64,000 bases of DNA from Anaerostipes sp. MSJ-23 (GTDB lineage Bacteria; Bacillota; Clostridia; Lachnospirales; Lachnospiraceae), in assembly GCF_018918155.1 (NCBI RefSeq), contig NZ_JAHLPY010000002.1:186001-250000 (forward strand). Reading direction: 5' to 3'. Under the pieces are notes generated by a model that worked only from the letters and a program-made list of their open reading frames with translations, made no database searches and was not told where the DNA came from. Below are positions 7,695 to 58,766 of this stretch, in pieces. Every line of letters starts with the position of its first letter. Position 1 is the stretch's first letter. The position numbers and the translations under genes are program-made.

Positions 7695-7734
7695 AAAGCG
7701 GGATTTCTTTTAAAAGAAATCCCGTCGTTTTTTT
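7695..7734. terminator. Bidirectional terminator with 13-bp arms
   Basis: CGGGATTTCTTTT and its exact complement meet back to back at 7699-7724, flanked by an A-run and a T-run. It ends the rightward operon and overlaps the last codons of the leftward PIG-L gene. Confidence 0.85.
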
Positions 7735-21163: not shown

Positions 21164-22330
21164 ATGAAAAAGACAGTCAATTTAATTGTAAAATATTTTA
21201 TTATGTATCTGTCATGTCTGTTTCCAAGAAGTAGAAAAATCTGCATCTTTGGCGCGTGGCTTGGGAAGCAGTATGCAGATAATTCAAAATATCTCTTCCT
21301 TTGTGCACAAAAACATTCAACAATGCGTCCCGTGTGGATAACAAAGGATGCTTCTATATGCAAAGAAATCCGCAGACAGGGATATGAAGCATATATGTTT
21401 CATAGTTTGAAAGGAATCTTTTTGCAGCTTCGTGCAAAATATGCGATAGTTAGCAATGGAATTAGTGATGTCAATCATACATTTATGGGAGGAGCCATTT
21501 ATCTAAATTTATGGCATGGAGTACCATTGAAAAAAGTAGGGTATGATGATGATAAGACGGTAAATTGGGAAAGTCGTGGACAAAAAATTCGTAGAGCGAT
21601 TCATAAAATACCTCTTGGGAAAGAATATGTAGTAGCAACAAGTCAGCCATATGCAAAAATTTATGAAAGTGCCTTCAAATGTCCCTCGTCAAGAGTGATT
21701 ACCCTTGGGCAGGTCAGAAATGATATTTTCTTTGATGAAGAAGGATATTTTTTACCAAAACATCAATTAAGAAAAGCGGCCAAAGGACGTAAGATAATCT
21801 TGTATACACCAACGCACAGACAAGAAGGAAAAGAGAAATTTCCTCTGGAAGAAAATTTTGATTTTGAACGTTTGAATCAATGGTGTAAGGAGAAACATGC
21901 TGTTTTTGTTATACGGCTTCATTTTTATCATCAGAAGGAAACCTTAGATTTATCTATGTATTCTAATATTTTTAATATTACAGAGAAAGAGATGGATATT
22001 CAGGAACTTCTCATGGATACGGATTTGCTTATAACAGATTATTCTAGTACTTATATTGATTATCTATTATTAAATCGTCCATTGATGTTTTATGAGTTTG
22101 ATTATGAAGATTATTTGATGAATGATCGGGAAATGTATTATCCTTATGAAGAGGTAACACCTGGATATCATGCTCGTAATTTTGATCAATTTATGGAAGA
22201 ACTGGAACGTATTTCTCAAGGAGAAGATCAATTTAAGGAAGAACGTAAAAAAGTTTGCGATCTCTTCTATTGTAAAGAAGGACAAAAAGCTATTGGTGAA
22301 ACCTTATTAAAGATTATGAAACGGTTATAA
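21164..22330 (+). CDS. CDP-glycerol glycerophosphotransferase family protein (third copy)
   Basis: A 388-residue enzyme with LWHGVPLKKVGYD near residues 113-125, YTPTHRQEG in the middle and LLITDYSSTYIDY near residue 293. The frame is open eight codons upstream, but AAGGAG sits six bases before the ATG at 21164, so that start is preferred; it lies ten bases after the GT2 stop. It is the last gene of the locus, followed by a strong terminator. Three different members in one locus suggest primase and polymerase roles, or separate glycerol and ribitol specificity. Confidence 0.87.
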   Translation: MKKTVNLIVKYFIMYLSCLFPRSRKICIFGAWLGKQYADNSKYLFLCAQKHSTMRPVWITKDASICKEIRRQGYEAYMFHSLKGIFLQLRAKYAIVSNGISDVNHTFMGGAIYLNLWHGVPLKKVGYDDDKTVNWESRGQKIRRAIHKIPLGKEYVVATSQPYAKIYESAFKCPSSRVITLGQVRNDIFFDEEGYFLPKHQLRKAAKGRKIILYTPTHRQEGKEKFPLEENFDFERLNQWCKEKHAVFVIRLHFYHQKETLDLSMYSNIFNITEKEMDIQELLMDTDLLITDYSSTYIDYLLLNRPLMFYEFDYEDYLMNDREMYYPYEEVTPGYHARNFDQFMEELERISQGEDQFKEERKKVCDLFYCKEGQKAIGETLLKIMKRL

Positions 22331-22350
22331 AAAACAGCCAAAATCATAGA

Positions 22351-22396
22351 TTCCAAAAGAGTTAGACTTTATAATCTAACTCTTTTGGAATTTTAT
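22351..22396. terminator. Strong terminator ending the teichoic-acid-like locus
   Basis: A perfect 16-bp stem (22351-22366 with 22375-22390) closes an 8-base loop and is followed by TTTT on the plus strand. It lies between convergent genes and may work weakly in the other direction. Confidence 0.85.
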
Positions 22397-29119: not shown

Positions 29120-30952
29120 ATGAGTCGTTTGGAATTACTGACCCCTAATCAGTCACAGCTGGTTGTAGAAGGTCTTTATAAAGACTTGGAACGAAGAATC
29201 GAGTCCAGTCCTCCGGGATTATGTCCGGTTGATATTTCAAGAGCTTTTCTCGAACTTTGCCATGCACAAAGCTGTGGAAAATGTGTTCCATGTAGAGTAG
29301 GACTAGGACAGCTCAAAAATCTGATTACCGATGTACTGGATGGAAAGGCAACCATTCGCACTTTAACAGCAATTCGAGAGACAGCACAGTCTATTATGGA
29401 GTCAGCAGATTGTGCGATTGGATATGAAGCTGCCAATATGGTATATAAAGGTGTGATTGGCTTTAAAGATGATTATCTGGAACATATTATGTATCATCGA
29501 TGTTTAAGTACATTAAAACAGCCGGTACCATGTGTATCTAGATGTCCGGCAAGGGTTGATATTCCAGGATACATTGCGCTTGTTCGCGAAGGAAGATATG
29601 AGGATGCTATTCGTCTGATCCGGAAGGATAATCCATTTCCGACAACCTGTGGATTTATCTGTGAGCATCCGTGTGAGGCGTTATGCCGTAGGAATATGAT
29701 TGATGATTCGGTGAATATTCGTGGATTAAAACGAATGGCAGCCGATGCTGCTGGATATGTGGCACCACCGAAATGTGCATCATCAACAGGAAAAAATGTA
29801 GCTGTCGTTGGAGGAGGACCGGGAGGTTTGAGTGCAGCTTACTTTCTTCAACTGATGGGACATCAGGTAACCGTTTATGAAATGCTTCCAAAGCTTGGAG
29901 GAATGCTTCGCTATGGAATTCCAAACTATCGTCTTCCGAAAGAACGTTTGGATGATGATATTCAAGCGATTCTTGATACCGGTGTAAAAGTAGATTGTGG
30001 AAAAGTAATAGGAAAAGATTATTCGATCGTGGATTTAAAAGAAAAATATGATGCAGTTTTAATTACGATTGGTGCCAGTACCGATAAGAAACTTGGTCTG
30101 GAAGGAGAAGATGCAAACGGTGTTATCTCAGCAGTGCAGTTTTTAAGAAATGTCGGGTATGGAACTCAGGAAAGTCTGGAAGGAAAAGAAGTCGCTGTCA
30201 TTGGAGGTGGAAATGTTTCCATGGATGCGGTTCGTACTTCTGTAAGACTTGGAGCAAAAAAAGTTAGCATTGTTTATCGGAGAAGAGTTGCAGATATGAC
30301 AGCGCTTCCAGATGAAATTGAGGGAGCAGAAGCAGAAGGCGTTGAAATTAAGACGCTAATGTCACCAGCAAAAATTGAAAAAGATGATGATGGGAATGTC
30401 AAAGGAATCTGGGTGACGCCACAGATGATCAGTCAGATCAAAGGTGGAAGAGCTAGTGTGAAACCAACAGGAGAAAAAGATATTTTTATTCCATGTCAGT
30501 GTTTGATTGTTGCCATTGGACAAGATATTGAGTATCAGCACTTTGAGGAAGCTGGTGTGCCGGTCCAAAGGGGAAAAATTAACGTAGAAAAATTTGGCGG
30601 ATTTGAAGAAATGCCGGGTGTATTTGCTGGGGGAGATTGTGCAACTGGCCCGTCTACGGTAATTTCAGCGATTGCAGCCGGAAAAGTTATTGCTGCAAAC
30701 ATTGATGAATACCTTGGATATCATCATGAAATTTCTGCAGGAGTGGAGATACCGGAGCCATGTCTTGAGGATAAACCACCTTGCGGAAGAGTAAATCTGA
30801 CAGAAAGAGAAGCTGGAGAAAGAATCCACGATTTTGAAGGAATTGAAAATTGTATGACATCAAAAGAAGCTTGCCAGGAAGCATCTAGATGTTTGCGCTG
30901 TGATCACTTCGGTTATGGAATATTTAAGGGAGGGAGGAAGACGAAATGGTAA
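29120..30952 (+). CDS. GltD-like FAD/NADPH oxidoreductase fused to a NuoF-type 4Fe-4S domain
   Basis: A 610-residue cytoplasmic flavoprotein. Residues of about 40-100 match the NuoF/HydB 4Fe-4S domain (SCGKCVPCR plus a later cysteine). Residues of about 135-215 are the GltD-type iron-sulfur domain (CVSRCPARVDIPGY, CGFICEHPCEALC). The rest is the pyridine nucleotide-disulfide fold with FAD loop GGGPGGLSAAY and NADPH loop GGGNVSMDAVR followed by YRRR. A cysteine pair (CLRC) lies near the C-terminus. Its stop overlaps the hydrogenase start by seven bases, so it probably passes electrons between NAD(P)H, perhaps ferredoxin, and the hydrogenase. Bifurcation is possible but unproven. Confidence 0.85.
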   Translation: MSRLELLTPNQSQLVVEGLYKDLERRIESSPPGLCPVDISRAFLELCHAQSCGKCVPCRVGLGQLKNLITDVLDGKATIRTLTAIRETAQSIMESADCAIGYEAANMVYKGVIGFKDDYLEHIMYHRCLSTLKQPVPCVSRCPARVDIPGYIALVREGRYEDAIRLIRKDNPFPTTCGFICEHPCEALCRRNMIDDSVNIRGLKRMAADAAGYVAPPKCASSTGKNVAVVGGGPGGLSAAYFLQLMGHQVTVYEMLPKLGGMLRYGIPNYRLPKERLDDDIQAILDTGVKVDCGKVIGKDYSIVDLKEKYDAVLITIGASTDKKLGLEGEDANGVISAVQFLRNVGYGTQESLEGKEVAVIGGGNVSMDAVRTSVRLGAKKVSIVYRRRVADMTALPDEIEGAEAEGVEIKTLMSPAKIEKDDDGNVKGIWVTPQMISQIKGGRASVKPTGEKDIFIPCQCLIVAIGQDIEYQHFEEAGVPVQRGKINVEKFGGFEEMPGVFAGGDCATGPSTVISAIAAGKVIAANIDEYLGYHHEISAGVEIPEPCLEDKPPCGRVNLTEREAGERIHDFEGIENCMTSKEACQEASRCLRCDHFGYGIFKGGRKTKW

Positions 30953-32664
30953 ATATTACAATTAATCGTCAGAAAATTTCCGTTCCAGAAGGGACAACAA
31001 TTATGGAAGCAGCAGCATCCATTCATGTTCCGATACCAAAACTTTGCTATTTAAAAGATATCAATGAAATCGGAGCCTGTCGTGTCTGTGTAGTAGAAGT
31101 TAAAGGGCAGGATCGTCTTGTAACTTCATGTAATAACGTTGTAGAGGATGGAATGGTTATTTACACAAACAGTCCGAAAGTTCGAAGAAATCGTAAACAT
31201 ACGATAAAAATGATTCTTTCGCAACATGAAGCACAGTGTGTTGCCTGCGTTCGCAGTGGAAACTGTAGTCTTCAGACTATTGCAAATGATTTAAATGTTG
31301 TGGATACACCATATAAAAAGGAACTGGTTGTGCAGGAATGGGATGAAAGATATCCTCTGATTCGGGATGCAAATAAATGTATCAAGTGTATGCGCTGCGT
31401 ACAGGTTTGTGATAAAATTCAGGGAATGTATATTTGGGATGTATCTGGAACAGGTTCAAGAACAACCGTTGGAGTATCTGGAAATCGTGATATTCAGAGA
31501 GCCGACTGTGCACTTTGTGGGCAGTGTATTACACATTGTCCAACTGGAGCTTTAAGAGAAAGAGATGACACAGAAGAACTGTATCGTGCAATTGAAAAAG
31601 AAGATACCATTGTTGTTGCTCAGATTGCACCTGCCGTACGTGCAGCATGGGGAGAATCTTTGGGACTTTCAAGAGAGGAAGCAACGGTGCAAAAAATCGT
31701 AGATGCATTGAAAAGGATTGGTGTTGATTATGTATTTGATACAACATTTTCTGCTGATCTTACGATTATGGAAGAAGGAAATGAATTTGTAGAACGTTAT
31801 ACAAAGGGAGATTTAGATGTACATCCAATGTTTACTTCTTGCTGTCCGGGTTGGGTCCGTTTTCTAAAATCCCAGTACCCTCAAATGACAGGCAGACTTT
31901 CTGGTGCAAAATCACCACAGGAAATGTTTGGTGCCGTTATGAAGACAGCCTTTGCAAAGCATATTGGTGTGAAACCAGAAAGAATTTTTGCAGTATCTAT
32001 TATGCCTTGTCTTGCGAAGAAAAGTGAGAGAGAAGCTTCTTTATTTTATAAGGAATATGCCGGACATGGGGTAGATTGTGTGTTAACGACAAGAGAATTA
32101 GATCGTTTGATTCGTGCAGATTATATTGATCCGAAGACTTTAGAAGATATACCGTTTGATCAACCATTTATGGAGGCAACTGGTGCCGGTGTGATTTTTG
32201 GTGCAACTGGAGGTGTTATGGAGGCAGCACTTCGTTCTGCTTATTATCTAATCACTGGAAAAAATCCAGATGCCGATTTATTCCAGGAGATTCGTGGACA
32301 AAAGAAAAGCGGATGGACAGAAGCAGAATTTGAAATTGCGGGAAATAGAGTGTCTGTTGCGGTTGTTAGTGGACTTCAAAATACAAGAGTACTGATGGAA
32401 GCCATAAGGAACAGAGAGGTACATTACCATTTTGTAGAAGTGATGGCGTGTCCTGGTGGTTGTTCCGGAGGTGGAGGACAGCCAATCCATGAAGGAAAAG
32501 AGCTTGCAGCAAAAAGAGGAGAAAATTTGCATTTCCTTGATCAACATGCGGCAATTCGTTTTTCACATGAAAATTCAGATATTAAGCGACTTTATAAAGA
32601 ATTCTTTGATGCACCTGGTTCTAATAAAGCACATCAGCTGTTACATACAGAACATAAAGCATAA
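30946..32664 (+). CDS. [FeFe] hydrogenase, monomeric M3-type catalytic subunit
   Basis: A 572-residue enzyme, close in length to clostridial CpI. It has an N-terminal 2Fe-2S domain (C34, C45, C48, C62), a His-ligated cluster segment (HEAQCVACVRSGNC), two 4Fe-4S motifs (CIKCMRCVQVC, CALCGQCITHC) and the H-cluster domain with TSCCPGW, MPCLAKKSE and CPGGCSGGGGQ. It catalyses proton reduction or hydrogen oxidation. The overlapping upstream GltD-like gene suggests NAD(P)H coupling, as in the GltD-associated group of [FeFe] hydrogenases. HydE/F/G maturases are not in the window. Confidence 0.95.
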   Translation: MVNITINRQKISVPEGTTIMEAAASIHVPIPKLCYLKDINEIGACRVCVVEVKGQDRLVTSCNNVVEDGMVIYTNSPKVRRNRKHTIKMILSQHEAQCVACVRSGNCSLQTIANDLNVVDTPYKKELVVQEWDERYPLIRDANKCIKCMRCVQVCDKIQGMYIWDVSGTGSRTTVGVSGNRDIQRADCALCGQCITHCPTGALRERDDTEELYRAIEKEDTIVVAQIAPAVRAAWGESLGLSREEATVQKIVDALKRIGVDYVFDTTFSADLTIMEEGNEFVERYTKGDLDVHPMFTSCCPGWVRFLKSQYPQMTGRLSGAKSPQEMFGAVMKTAFAKHIGVKPERIFAVSIMPCLAKKSEREASLFYKEYAGHGVDCVLTTRELDRLIRADYIDPKTLEDIPFDQPFMEATGAGVIFGATGGVMEAALRSAYYLITGKNPDADLFQEIRGQKKSGWTEAEFEIAGNRVSVAVVSGLQNTRVLMEAIRNREVHYHFVEVMACPGGCSGGGGQPIHEGKELAAKRGENLHFLDQHAAIRFSHENSDIKRLYKEFFDAPGSNKAHQLLHTEHKA

Positions 32665-33772: not shown

Positions 33773-34093
33773 GATGATCCTCCAATATGGAAATTAAATT
33801 TTAAAATAACGATAAGTTTAGTATAACATTGTGTAAATAATATATCAATTGAATCAGCATGATTTGTTCTTTATAAAATAGGGATATCGATCGAACAGGA
33901 TACTTGTGTTTGAGTTAAACAATAAATACTGTGAAAGAAATAAAAAATTTGTGCAAATTTTGGAAAGAATGACAACTTGTGTACTATTCTTTGTACATTT
34001 ATTTACAGAATTCAGTTTTTTCGATATAATATAGCCTAATAGGCTGAAAAGAACAGCCGGTTAGTGATGAGAAACACCATAGGAGGAACAACC
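33773..34093. other. Intergenic region between divergent oxidoreductase and icd
   Basis: No credible gene lies in these 320 bases. The right part carries the icd promoter (34002-34030) and a leader that can form either of two short hairpins (34033-34058). A TGTAC-N8-GTACA repeat (33980-33997) lies about 5 bases upstream of the -35 box. The left half is AT-rich and has no clear structure beyond a ribosome site for the leftward gene. Confidence 0.5.
34002..34030 (+). promoter_or_regulatory. Promoter for icd
   Basis: TTTACA and TATAAT are separated by exactly 17 bases; transcription would begin near 34037, inside a small palindrome. Confidence 0.7.
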
Positions 34094-35293
34094 ATGAGTA
34101 AAATTCAGATGACTACGCCGTTAGTTGAAATGGACGGAGATGAAATGACAAGAATTCTTTGGAAAATGATCAAAGAAGAACTGTTACTCCCATTTATTGA
34201 TTTAAAAACAGAATACTATGATCTCGGATTAGAGCATAGAAATGAAACAAATGACCAGGTAACATTTGATTCTGCAGAAGCGACAAAGAAATATGGGGTT
34301 GCCGTAAAATGTGCGACAATTACTCCGAATGCTGCACGTATGGATGAATATAACCTGAAAGAAATGTGGAAAAGTCCAAATGGAACGATTCGTGCCATTC
34401 TTGATGGAACGGTATTTCGTGCTCCAATTACAGTAAAGGGAATTGAGCCAACGGTAAGTAAATGGAAGAAACCAATTACAATTGCAAGACATGCCTATGG
34501 TGATGTTTATAAAGGTGTTGAAATTAAAGTTCCAGGAGCTGGAAAAGCAGAATTGGTATTTACTGGAGAAGATGGAACGCAGATCCGTGAAACTATTCAT
34601 GATTTTGATGGACCTGGAGTGATTCAGGGAATGCATAATATTGATAAATCTATTGAAAGTTTTGCAAGAAGCTGCTTTACTTATGCACTTGATACAAAAC
34701 AGGATTTATGGTTTGCAACAAAAGATACGATTTCTAAAAAATATGATCATACATTTAAAGATATTTTCCAGGAAATTTATGATGCAGAATATGCAGCTAA
34801 ATTCGAAGCAGCAGGAATTGAATATTTTTATACATTAATTGATGATGCAGTAGCACGTGTTATGAAATCAGAAGGTGGATTTATTTGGGCGTGCAAGAAC
34901 TATGATGGAGATGTTATGAGTGATATGATTTCTTCTGCATTTGGTTCTCTTGCAATGATGACTTCTGTACTCGTATCTCCAAAAGGATATTATGAATATG
35001 AAGCAGCACATGGAACTGTACAGCGTCATTATTATAAATATTTAAAAGGAGAAGAAACCTCTACAAATTCTGTTGCAACGATCTTTGCATGGACAGGTGC
35101 CCTTAGAAAACGTGGTGAAATCGATGGAAATAAGGAATTAATGGAGTTTGCAGATAAACTTGAAAAAGCAACATTGGATACAATTGAATCTGGAACGATG
35201 ACAAAAGACCTTGCACTGATTACAACGCTTGAAAATGTGAATGCGGTAAACAGTGAAGGATTTATCAAAGCAATTGCAGAAAGATTAAAATAA
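34094..35293 (+). CDS. icd: NADP-dependent isocitrate dehydrogenase, eukaryote-like homodimeric type
   Basis: A 399-residue enzyme converting isocitrate to 2-oxoglutarate and CO2 with NADP. It resembles mammalian IDH1/2 rather than E. coli Icd: [12 protein letters not shown] near residues 11-22, [16 protein letters not shown] near 92-107, and the NADP site region [11 protein letters not shown] near 305-315. The frame is open ten codons upstream, but AGGAGGA eight bases before 34094 fixes that start. In an anaerobe it most likely supplies 2-oxoglutarate for glutamate. A structured RNA region follows its stop within ten bases. Confidence 0.93.
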
Positions 35294-35302
35294 GCTGTTT
35301 AA

Positions 35303-35519
35303 CTTCAACTAAGTAAAACGAAGGTAGCGGGAGAAATTGTGAAAGTAACTTAACGGCAGTGGTGGGCGAAGAAAAATCGACATGCCCAGCTGATATAAGG
35401 TCAAGCATAGTCGGTATGAAGTTGACATATCAGGCTCAGTGAAATTACCGACTGTGAGTTGAAACAAAATAAAAAAGAAAAAGACCGGGATGTGAAAAAA
35501 AGAAACATCTCGGTTTTTT
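35303..35519 (+). ncRNA. Putative structured noncoding RNA with H-type pseudoknot, after icd
   Basis: No gene fits the 346 bases between icd and the next gene, yet base pairing is dense. P1 (35303-35309 with 35456-35462, 7 bp) closes the element. P2 is TGGGC/GCCCA (35362-35366 with 35383-35387). P3 is a 12-bp stem with a 3-base bulge (35389-35395 and 35399-35403 with 35421-35432). Its loop 35405-35415 pairs with 35445-35455 (11 bp, one G-T), making an H-type pseudoknot that abuts P1. A terminator ends the element. Length and pseudoknots recall large ncRNAs of Firmicutes such as the raiA motif, but I cannot confirm identity. A weak promoter (TTTATC-N18-TAAAAT, 35261-35290) lies inside the end of icd; processing from the icd mRNA is the alternative. 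Confidence 0.6.
35482..35519 (+). terminator. Terminator of the icd/ncRNA transcript
   Basis: ACCGGGATGT (35483-35492) pairs with ACATCTCGGT (35504-35513) with one G-T pair, followed by six T. Confidence 0.88.
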
Positions 35520-35639
35520 AACGTAATCTTTACCTTGTCATGATACAACAGTTACATAAAACTCATATAATGAGCAAGAATCATCTTTTGAAAACATTTT
35601 TCAAGAGAAAAATAAGAAACATGTAGAAGGAGAAAGATT

Positions 35640-48918: not shown

Positions 48919-48958
48919 AAAAAAAGATCTCAGAAGAATTTCTTCTGAGATCTTTTTA
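48919..48958 (+). terminator. Terminator of the purCFB operon
   Basis: The arms AAAAAGATCTCAGAAGAA and their exact complement run 48921-48938 and 48940-48957, with the T-run formed by the right arm. Confidence 0.88.
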
Positions 48959-58726: not shown

Positions 58727-58766
58727 ATGCCTGCCGGCAATGAAGATATGCTGGCAGGTTTTTCTT
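58727..58766 (+). terminator. Terminator after the DUF975 gene
   Basis: CCTGCCGGCA and TGCTGGCAGG arms (one G-T pair) surround a 9-base loop, followed by TTTTTCTTCT. Confidence 0.85.

Follow-up and report, generated by a model that had tools for sequence, protein, structure and literature searches.

A structured segment downstream of icd in Anaerostipes sp. MSJ-23 is very probably a degenerate copy of a non-autonomous IS200/IS605-type mobile element

The 64,000-nucleotide stretch of the Anaerostipes sp. MSJ-23 genome analysed here (the window) carries a strongly folded segment directly after icd, which raises the question of what kind of sequence this structure belongs to. The original prediction took it for a pseudoknotted non-coding RNA with its own terminator, placed in a gap that fits no gene. 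The ORF listing bears out such a gap, and the locus comprises:

34094..35293, + strand: icd (isocitrate dehydrogenase), on the 5' side of the insertion; its start codon was picked by eye within the ORF at 34064-35293, which we take to be this gene.
35294-35639: gap 3' of icd, 346 bases, between icd and the next long ORF.
35484..35520, + strand: terminator-like hairpin with a T run, seen in the fold; outside the element described below and beyond the family boundary.

The structure predicted after icd is real. On the + strand, 35294-35520 folds with -60.6 kcal/mol, compared with -42.4 ± 4.0 kcal/mol in 200 dinucleotide shuffles (z -4.5, with none of the 200 as good), while the − strand of the same segment reaches a z of only -1.55. 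The further claim that its pairing is far denser than in any other gap does not hold, as the 150-base tile over the segment ranks 12th of 850 in the window by z (-4.70, with 12 shuffles each), and the 11 better-ranked tiles include plain long hairpins near 22318, 48868 and 58618. It had also been suggested that the RNA might belong to raiA or another known class. A search of the whole window with 4227 Rfam models gave no family at the gathering threshold. The four matches in the gap up to E=10 are at chance level (E 2 to 8.5), with raiA, OLE, ROOL and GOLLD absent among them, and no match lay over the element in six relatives at E<=5. An assignment to raiA or to another Rfam family was rejected on these grounds; the segment resembles raiA, OLE, ROOL and GOLLD as structured bacterial RNA, but differs from them in having no Rfam match at the gathering threshold. 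Perfect or near-perfect long intergenic hairpins, with z lower than that of the icd segment, lie at 48921-48957, ~22347-22395, ~58731-58765 and ~7697-7724 of the window, and are probably bidirectional terminators.

Comparison with other genomes indicates that the segment is very probably a degenerate copy of a non-autonomous mobile element, a PATE or MITE of the IS200/IS605 kind with a length of ~165-190 bases. The window's own genome (G000; G and L numbers are our handles for genomes and loci) holds five long copies including that in the window, plus fragments. The other four long copies are 77-82% identical to the window copy, and the same sequence is present in other genera. R1, a covariance model of the core, found copies in 22 of 397 Lachnospiraceae genomes, own genome included, and six of these 22 carriers hold at least nine scored copies. 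Among 391 class-wide genomes it matched only two, namely the own genome and a weak match (E 1e-3) of the same family. When 84,980 species genomes were scanned with a sequence pattern, 61 stretches matched, all titled as Clostridia, from carriers that include Fusicatenibacter saccharivorans, Hungatella hathewayi, H. effluvii, Blautia schinkii, Eisenbergiella tayi and Diplocloster modestus. The copy set used below was drawn from 126 model hits, of which 119 were kept after five weak ones (L065, L066, L067, L150 and the second L170 hit) and two duplicates (L073, L099) were dropped; these gave 108 distinct copies, in selections that lean towards the structure. Among the matches listed in open-licence PMC literature, none describes the element.

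The copies represent a dispersed, multi-copy and gene-less element with recognisable ends: TTYAAY stands outside the left boundary, a left-end hairpin follows it, and TTGAAACAA closes the right end. This right end is exact in 67 of 107 copies and one base off in 19 more; its final A is kept in 97 of 107, the next base is mixed, and unrelated DNA lies beyond. On the other side, TTYAAY occurs at -85 to -40 from the core in 65 of 107 copies, against 9.0 expected by shuffling, and seven closely similar copies of one F. saccharivorans (G166) subgroup start directly after TTTAAC or TTTAAT. The left hairpin has the form AGCAAGAATTC...GATGAATTGCC. Cross-species sites that lack the element show uninterrupted DNA for three copies, with two or three extra bases at two of the three junctions; they agree only roughly with insertion 3' of a short fixed target without duplication. 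The flank at the icd end also matches other genomes of the genus. Many copies (e.g. L011, L017) contain a second, internal TTTAAC immediately 5' of P2, and some (L005, L091) have no left hairpin, their core directly following TTCAAC. The element may therefore use either of two left ends. Its parts in the window copy are:

35298..35303, + strand: TTTAAC, a target-like hexamer that many copies have on their left.
35304..35345, + strand: left-end remnant, an IS200/IS605-type hairpin with the 5' arm missing and the 3' arm kept, from by-eye comparison with L002-L004, L009 and L115.
35346..35467, + strand: conserved core, which covariance models R1 and R2 match over its full length.
35357..35392, + strand: P2 hairpin, 5' arm 35357-35366 and 3' arm 35384-35392.
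35377..35451, + strand: family pseudoknot, P2 loop 35377-35382 with 35446-35451 (UACCGA).
35402..35461, + strand: P5 long-range helix, CAA 35402-35404 with UUG 35459-35461 and CAUAG 35406-35410 with CUGUG 35452-35456, read directly.
35459-35467, + strand: element right end TTGAAACAA, boundary from copy comparison.

Compensatory changes are numerous in P2, P5 and the pseudoknot, which are kept in the right 120 bases of the element. A filter for length and redundancy passed 73 of the 108 copies. Alignment A5 comprises 65 of these diverse copies (eight decayed or misaligned ones were left out); these choices, too, lean towards the structure. Alignment A6 comprises all 73, realigned with R2 in a fit to P2 and P5 that leaves the pseudoknot out. 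Taking the three helices together, 86.9% of cells are paired in A5 and at most 44.8% when partners are slid; the corresponding values for A6 are 91.4% and at most 40.8%, with double changes in 19 of 24 pairs. P2 is paired in 94.9% of cells in A6, with double changes in 6 of 9 pairs. For P5 the value is 85.2% in A6, which was fitted to it, and 74.8% in the unfitted A5; in the A6 register, 32 of 73 rows form at most 7 of 9 P5 pairs. The pseudoknot is paired in 95.1% (A5) and 95.3% (A6) of cells, and U-A to G-C double changes are seen in 8-9 rows. In the unfitted alignment it has 13 doubly changed cells compared with 3.6 in shuffles, although it is weaker when judged by the number of pairs with double changes, which is four and was reached by 44 of 500 shuffles. 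The original prediction would by its own account fall if homologues kept no compensatory changes in its helices. Such changes are found in P2, P5 and the pseudoknot, so it does not fall for these; its closing helix, by comparison, is not conserved.

Compared with the family, the window copy is degenerate. R2 scores its core at 90.7 bits (E 1.5e-18) and matches nothing else in the window up to E=1. Of the left hairpin, only the 3' arm GAAGGTAGCGGGAG remains; the 5' arm, GAATCCCCTACCT in sister copies, is missing. Two of the nine modelled P2 pairs are non-standard, the P2 loop reads UCGACA instead of the UCGGUA of most copies, so that the pseudoknot is largely broken, and P5 is shifted by one base, giving 4 of 9 pairs in the A6 and model register and eight when read directly. 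As its left hairpin and pseudoknot are damaged, this copy is probably a relic, and it is probably transcribed passively with icd.

The helices of the original prediction can be read in the sequence, albeit with some coordinates one base off, and they relate to the family structure to differing degrees. The P2 hairpin is conserved across relatives. The closing helix (actually TTCAACT 35304-35310 with AGTTGAA 35457-35463) places its 5' strand outside the conserved unit, in the damaged left end. An 11-bp helix proposed for the loop (35406-35416 with 35446-35456) shares 5 of its 11 pairs with the conserved P5, but the other six use UACCGA 35446-35451, which pairs with the P2 loop in the family. 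The 12-bp stem with a 3-base bulge is a by-eye reading that seems limited to copies like those of the own genome. What had been missed is the pseudoknot that joins the P2 loop to the segment preceding P5; it is 95% paired in relatives and mutated in the window copy. The supposed terminator lies beyond the element end at 35467, where copies stop resembling each other, and probably belongs to the icd transcript. Thus a pseudoknotted structure with compensatory changes is present as proposed, but it belongs to a dispersed mobile-element sequence and not to an icd-linked or stand-alone ncRNA gene.

The left end and target of the family are related to those of autonomous IS200/IS605 tnpA-tnpB elements from Lachnospiraceae. 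The left end of element L331 in genome G318 is identical to that of L019 in 46 of 55 aligned columns (up to 84%). When six family copies were compared with autonomous elements over the left end, none of 1000 shuffles was as good in 21 of 24 comparisons, and 2 to 27 were in the other three. G318 gave seven TnpA matches, and both tnpA-tnpB elements fetched from it (L331, L332) have TTTAAC on the left, as does the family. Unlike the family copies, the G318 element carries tnpA and tnpB, and its right-end hairpin ends in GTCAC. More generally, the autonomous elements of G318 and G383 have a right-end hairpin followed by GTCAC or TTCAC, compared with GAAACAA in family copies. No TnpA that would cut both ends was therefore found, and this mismatched right end is the main gap in the mobile-element argument. 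The G318-type TnpA clade is found in 6 of 22 carriers and in 29 of 375 other genomes (Fisher p 0.008), the match being partial in three of these six. At E<=1e-40 nothing in the window genome matches the clade; that genome has other Y1 transposases. Across genomes, Y1_Tnp occurs in 12 of 12 carriers tested and in 5 of 14 unrelated control genomes, and is therefore weak evidence.

Loci that might provide a partner were compared in several ways. R1 and R2 gave nothing convincing over 122 tnpA/tnpB loci (best E 0.39). All-against-all comparison of neighbour ORFs over 44 + 61 loci gave no recurrent partner protein or transposase. Its matches were ORFs that overlie the element, a neighbourhood that L063 has in common with L010/L068, and host genes of sporadic occurrence, among them an ordinary one common to L118 and L167. 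When 149 fetched loci, among them overlapping ones and a few that contain no copy, were searched by tblastn with 19 tnpA/tnpB proteins, the matches were incidental neighbours only: L156 and the L059/L128 locus have a TnpB, and L128 also has a TnpA. No further copy was found by R1 at the L059/L128 and L156 loci. An autonomous relative beside a copy was accordingly rejected, since both comparisons gave only incidental neighbours. The 3' regions of IS607-type TnpB genes in the same genomes were likewise rejected, as by eye they bear no resemblance to the element. Four loci of the window genome, C19:33801-34001 (L022), C2:103838 (L023), C16:89 (L024) and C3:58514 (L025), together comprise a TnpB element of IS607 type, two Y1 transposase genes that look intact, and a fragment; R1 finds no element copy in them.

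Among the closest known counterparts are the PATEs (palindrome-associated transposable elements) of the IS200/IS605 family, for example in Halanaerobium hydrogeniformans (PMC7290912), which are likewise short, with a left-end hairpin, a long structured right end and no intact gene, and are presumably moved in trans by TnpA. The family differs from these in that its right part is pseudoknotted and covaries across many genera, and in that no parent with that right end was found.

Copies are mostly oriented with replication. In the complete genome G056, where the leading strand switches between 3.15 and 3.5 Mb, 9 of 11 copies follow replication, two deletion derivatives being counted among the 11. 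In four other genomes, 18 of 20 hand-picked windows follow the local GC skew; for G000 they include all five long copies, and of the nine scored copies in each of G166, G290 and G262 they include seven, eight (spread over seven windows) and one, respectively. The element strand is thus mostly the lagging-strand template. Transposition of IS200/IS605 elements prefers the lagging-strand template, and an orientation that follows replication is what is expected for single-strand transposition. In such a mechanism, a Y1 TnpA would move the element in trans as single-stranded DNA from the lagging-strand template. Relative to genes called with our own crude ORF caller rather than taken from annotation, the copies between co-directional genes are 66 in sense and 5 in antisense; a further 26 are flanked by opposed genes, and for 11 no gene was called on one side. 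A transcription-driven orientation bias is not needed, as replication direction can account for it.

That sense excess would also suit a cis-regulatory or 3'-UTR RNA, an attenuator or processing element recruited by host genes, and by eye some copies directly precede a likely ribosome-binding site and start codon. We nonetheless regard such recruitment as very unlikely, since the replication-strand bias can explain the orientation, neighbour genes vary between copies, and decayed copies exist. For the mobile element itself, the fold may act either as RNA or as single-stranded DNA during transposition, and the sequence is compatible with either. If it works as single-stranded DNA, P5 would be the right-end hairpin bound by TnpA, with P2 and the pseudoknot stabilising it. 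The replication-strand bias agrees with this, as does the position of P5, which ends beside the element end with the TTG of TTGAAACAA paired to CAA, and IS200/IS605 ends are described as single-stranded DNA hairpins in PMC7290912. On the RNA side, G-U pairs are commoner in P2 (70/702), the pseudoknot (36/370) and P5 (76/406) than in the left hairpin (12/236), which leans weakly to RNA, the more weakly because the counts come partly from folding and partly from alignment. A conserved pseudoknot is moreover not known as a feature of IS200/IS605 ends, and we regard a DNA-level role of the fold as possible but somewhat doubtful. In the omegaRNA layout of IS605 elements, the 3' end lies at the right end of the element, a pseudoknot lies near the 3' terminus, and a T-rich motif stands on the left. 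The flush 3' end, strand, pseudoknot and T-rich left motif of the family fit this layout at the DNA level, and P2, P5 and the pseudoknot covary. In the reading that we favour, the structured right half descends from an omegaRNA-like right end, in which the DNA flanking the flush 3' end would be the guide, and it may be a guide-type RNA. As in the TnpB guide RNA with two pseudoknots (RAGATH-18-derived reRNA) described in PMC11061315, this would be a structured, pseudoknotted RNA of an IS element, with a guide expected past its end. It is nevertheless doubtful that the right half acts in trans as an active guide RNA for a TnpB/Cas12-kind nuclease encoded elsewhere, which would take the DNA after GAAACAA for its guide and recognise TTTAAC as its motif. 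TnpB (PF07282) is present in 11 of 15 carriers tested, but Pfam TnpB is absent from carriers G056, G043, G262 and G387, two of which have at least nine scored copies. Unlike a TnpB omegaRNA, no copy lies at the 3' end of or just after tnpB, no Rfam match or cognate locus was found, and the 3' regions of 23 TnpB loci in carrier genomes look unlike the element by eye.

The 3' end invites a further comparison, with CRISPR repeats. The 13-mer GCGTGGATTGAAA is present in element copies of five genomes (G056, G408, G043, G026 and G242); two others, G166 and G262, have it in CRISPR arrays. A reversed control pattern gave no hits in 12 genomes. The repeat-like AUUGAAAY tail, with GTGGATTGAAA in 51 of 107 copies, resembles the ends of array repeats in these two carriers, and the G166 array is adjoined by ORFs resembling a type I-C cas operon (named by eye). 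A type I-C RNA anti-CRISPR is known, and so are solitary repeat units (PMC10651486); a 3' end that mimics a type I-C repeat would let the RNA interact with Cas proteins in an anti-CRISPR-like manner. This we consider highly improbable. None of the 12 genomes has the 13-mer in both an element copy and an array; 6 of 9 G166 copies end in GTGAGTTGAAAC, unlike that genome's own repeat, the G262 copies L094-L098 lack the 13-mer, and G000, G006, G290 and G217 have copies and no 13-mer. Unlike RNA anti-CRISPRs, the copies are dispersed and transposon-like, and their 3' strand is accounted for by P5 pairing, so that the sequence follows this helix and not the host repeat. One could also imagine an orphan guide-RNA family in gut Lachnospiraceae, a transposon-borne pseudoknotted scaffold with a CRISPR-repeat-like GTGGATTGAAAC end that spreads without a nuclease and takes insertion-flank DNA as guide, while a TnpB/Cas12-like protein, or a Cas protein of type I-C, would act on it in trans; we think this unlikely. 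A mobile element with no gene that nonetheless maintains a deep, covarying pseudoknot in many genera must have some need of it. Should the structure be an omegaRNA, the RNA could lead to a nuclease that has so far escaped notice; should it act as single-stranded DNA, the range of structures known to be recognised by Y1 transposases would widen. In both cases, RNA-like intergenic structures of this sort in common gut bacteria would be mobile DNA and not many separate ncRNA genes.

The F. saccharivorans G166 array has the repeat GTCGCTCCCCTCGCGGGAGCGTGGATTGAAAT; array and candidate cas ORFs lie at C22:255045-256247 and 256742-261770 (L360), and by eye the ORFs are cas4, cas7, cas8c, cas5c and perhaps cas1. 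Deletion derivatives of the element are scattered in Hungatella genomes (L264 at G056 C1:4155535, L263/L245, L267, L270), and keep the right-end motif, in L264 together with the left hairpin, or only GCGTGGATTGAAA. In IMG/VR no contig had the exact 22-base core pattern, and a plasmid search gave no match to the element. Seven unannotated faecal 'Bacteriophage sp.' records match it, one of them across 42 bases only. In one such record, MT835706.1, positions 30870-31051 are 100% identical to F. saccharivorans copy L083, and perhaps represent prophage or host flank.
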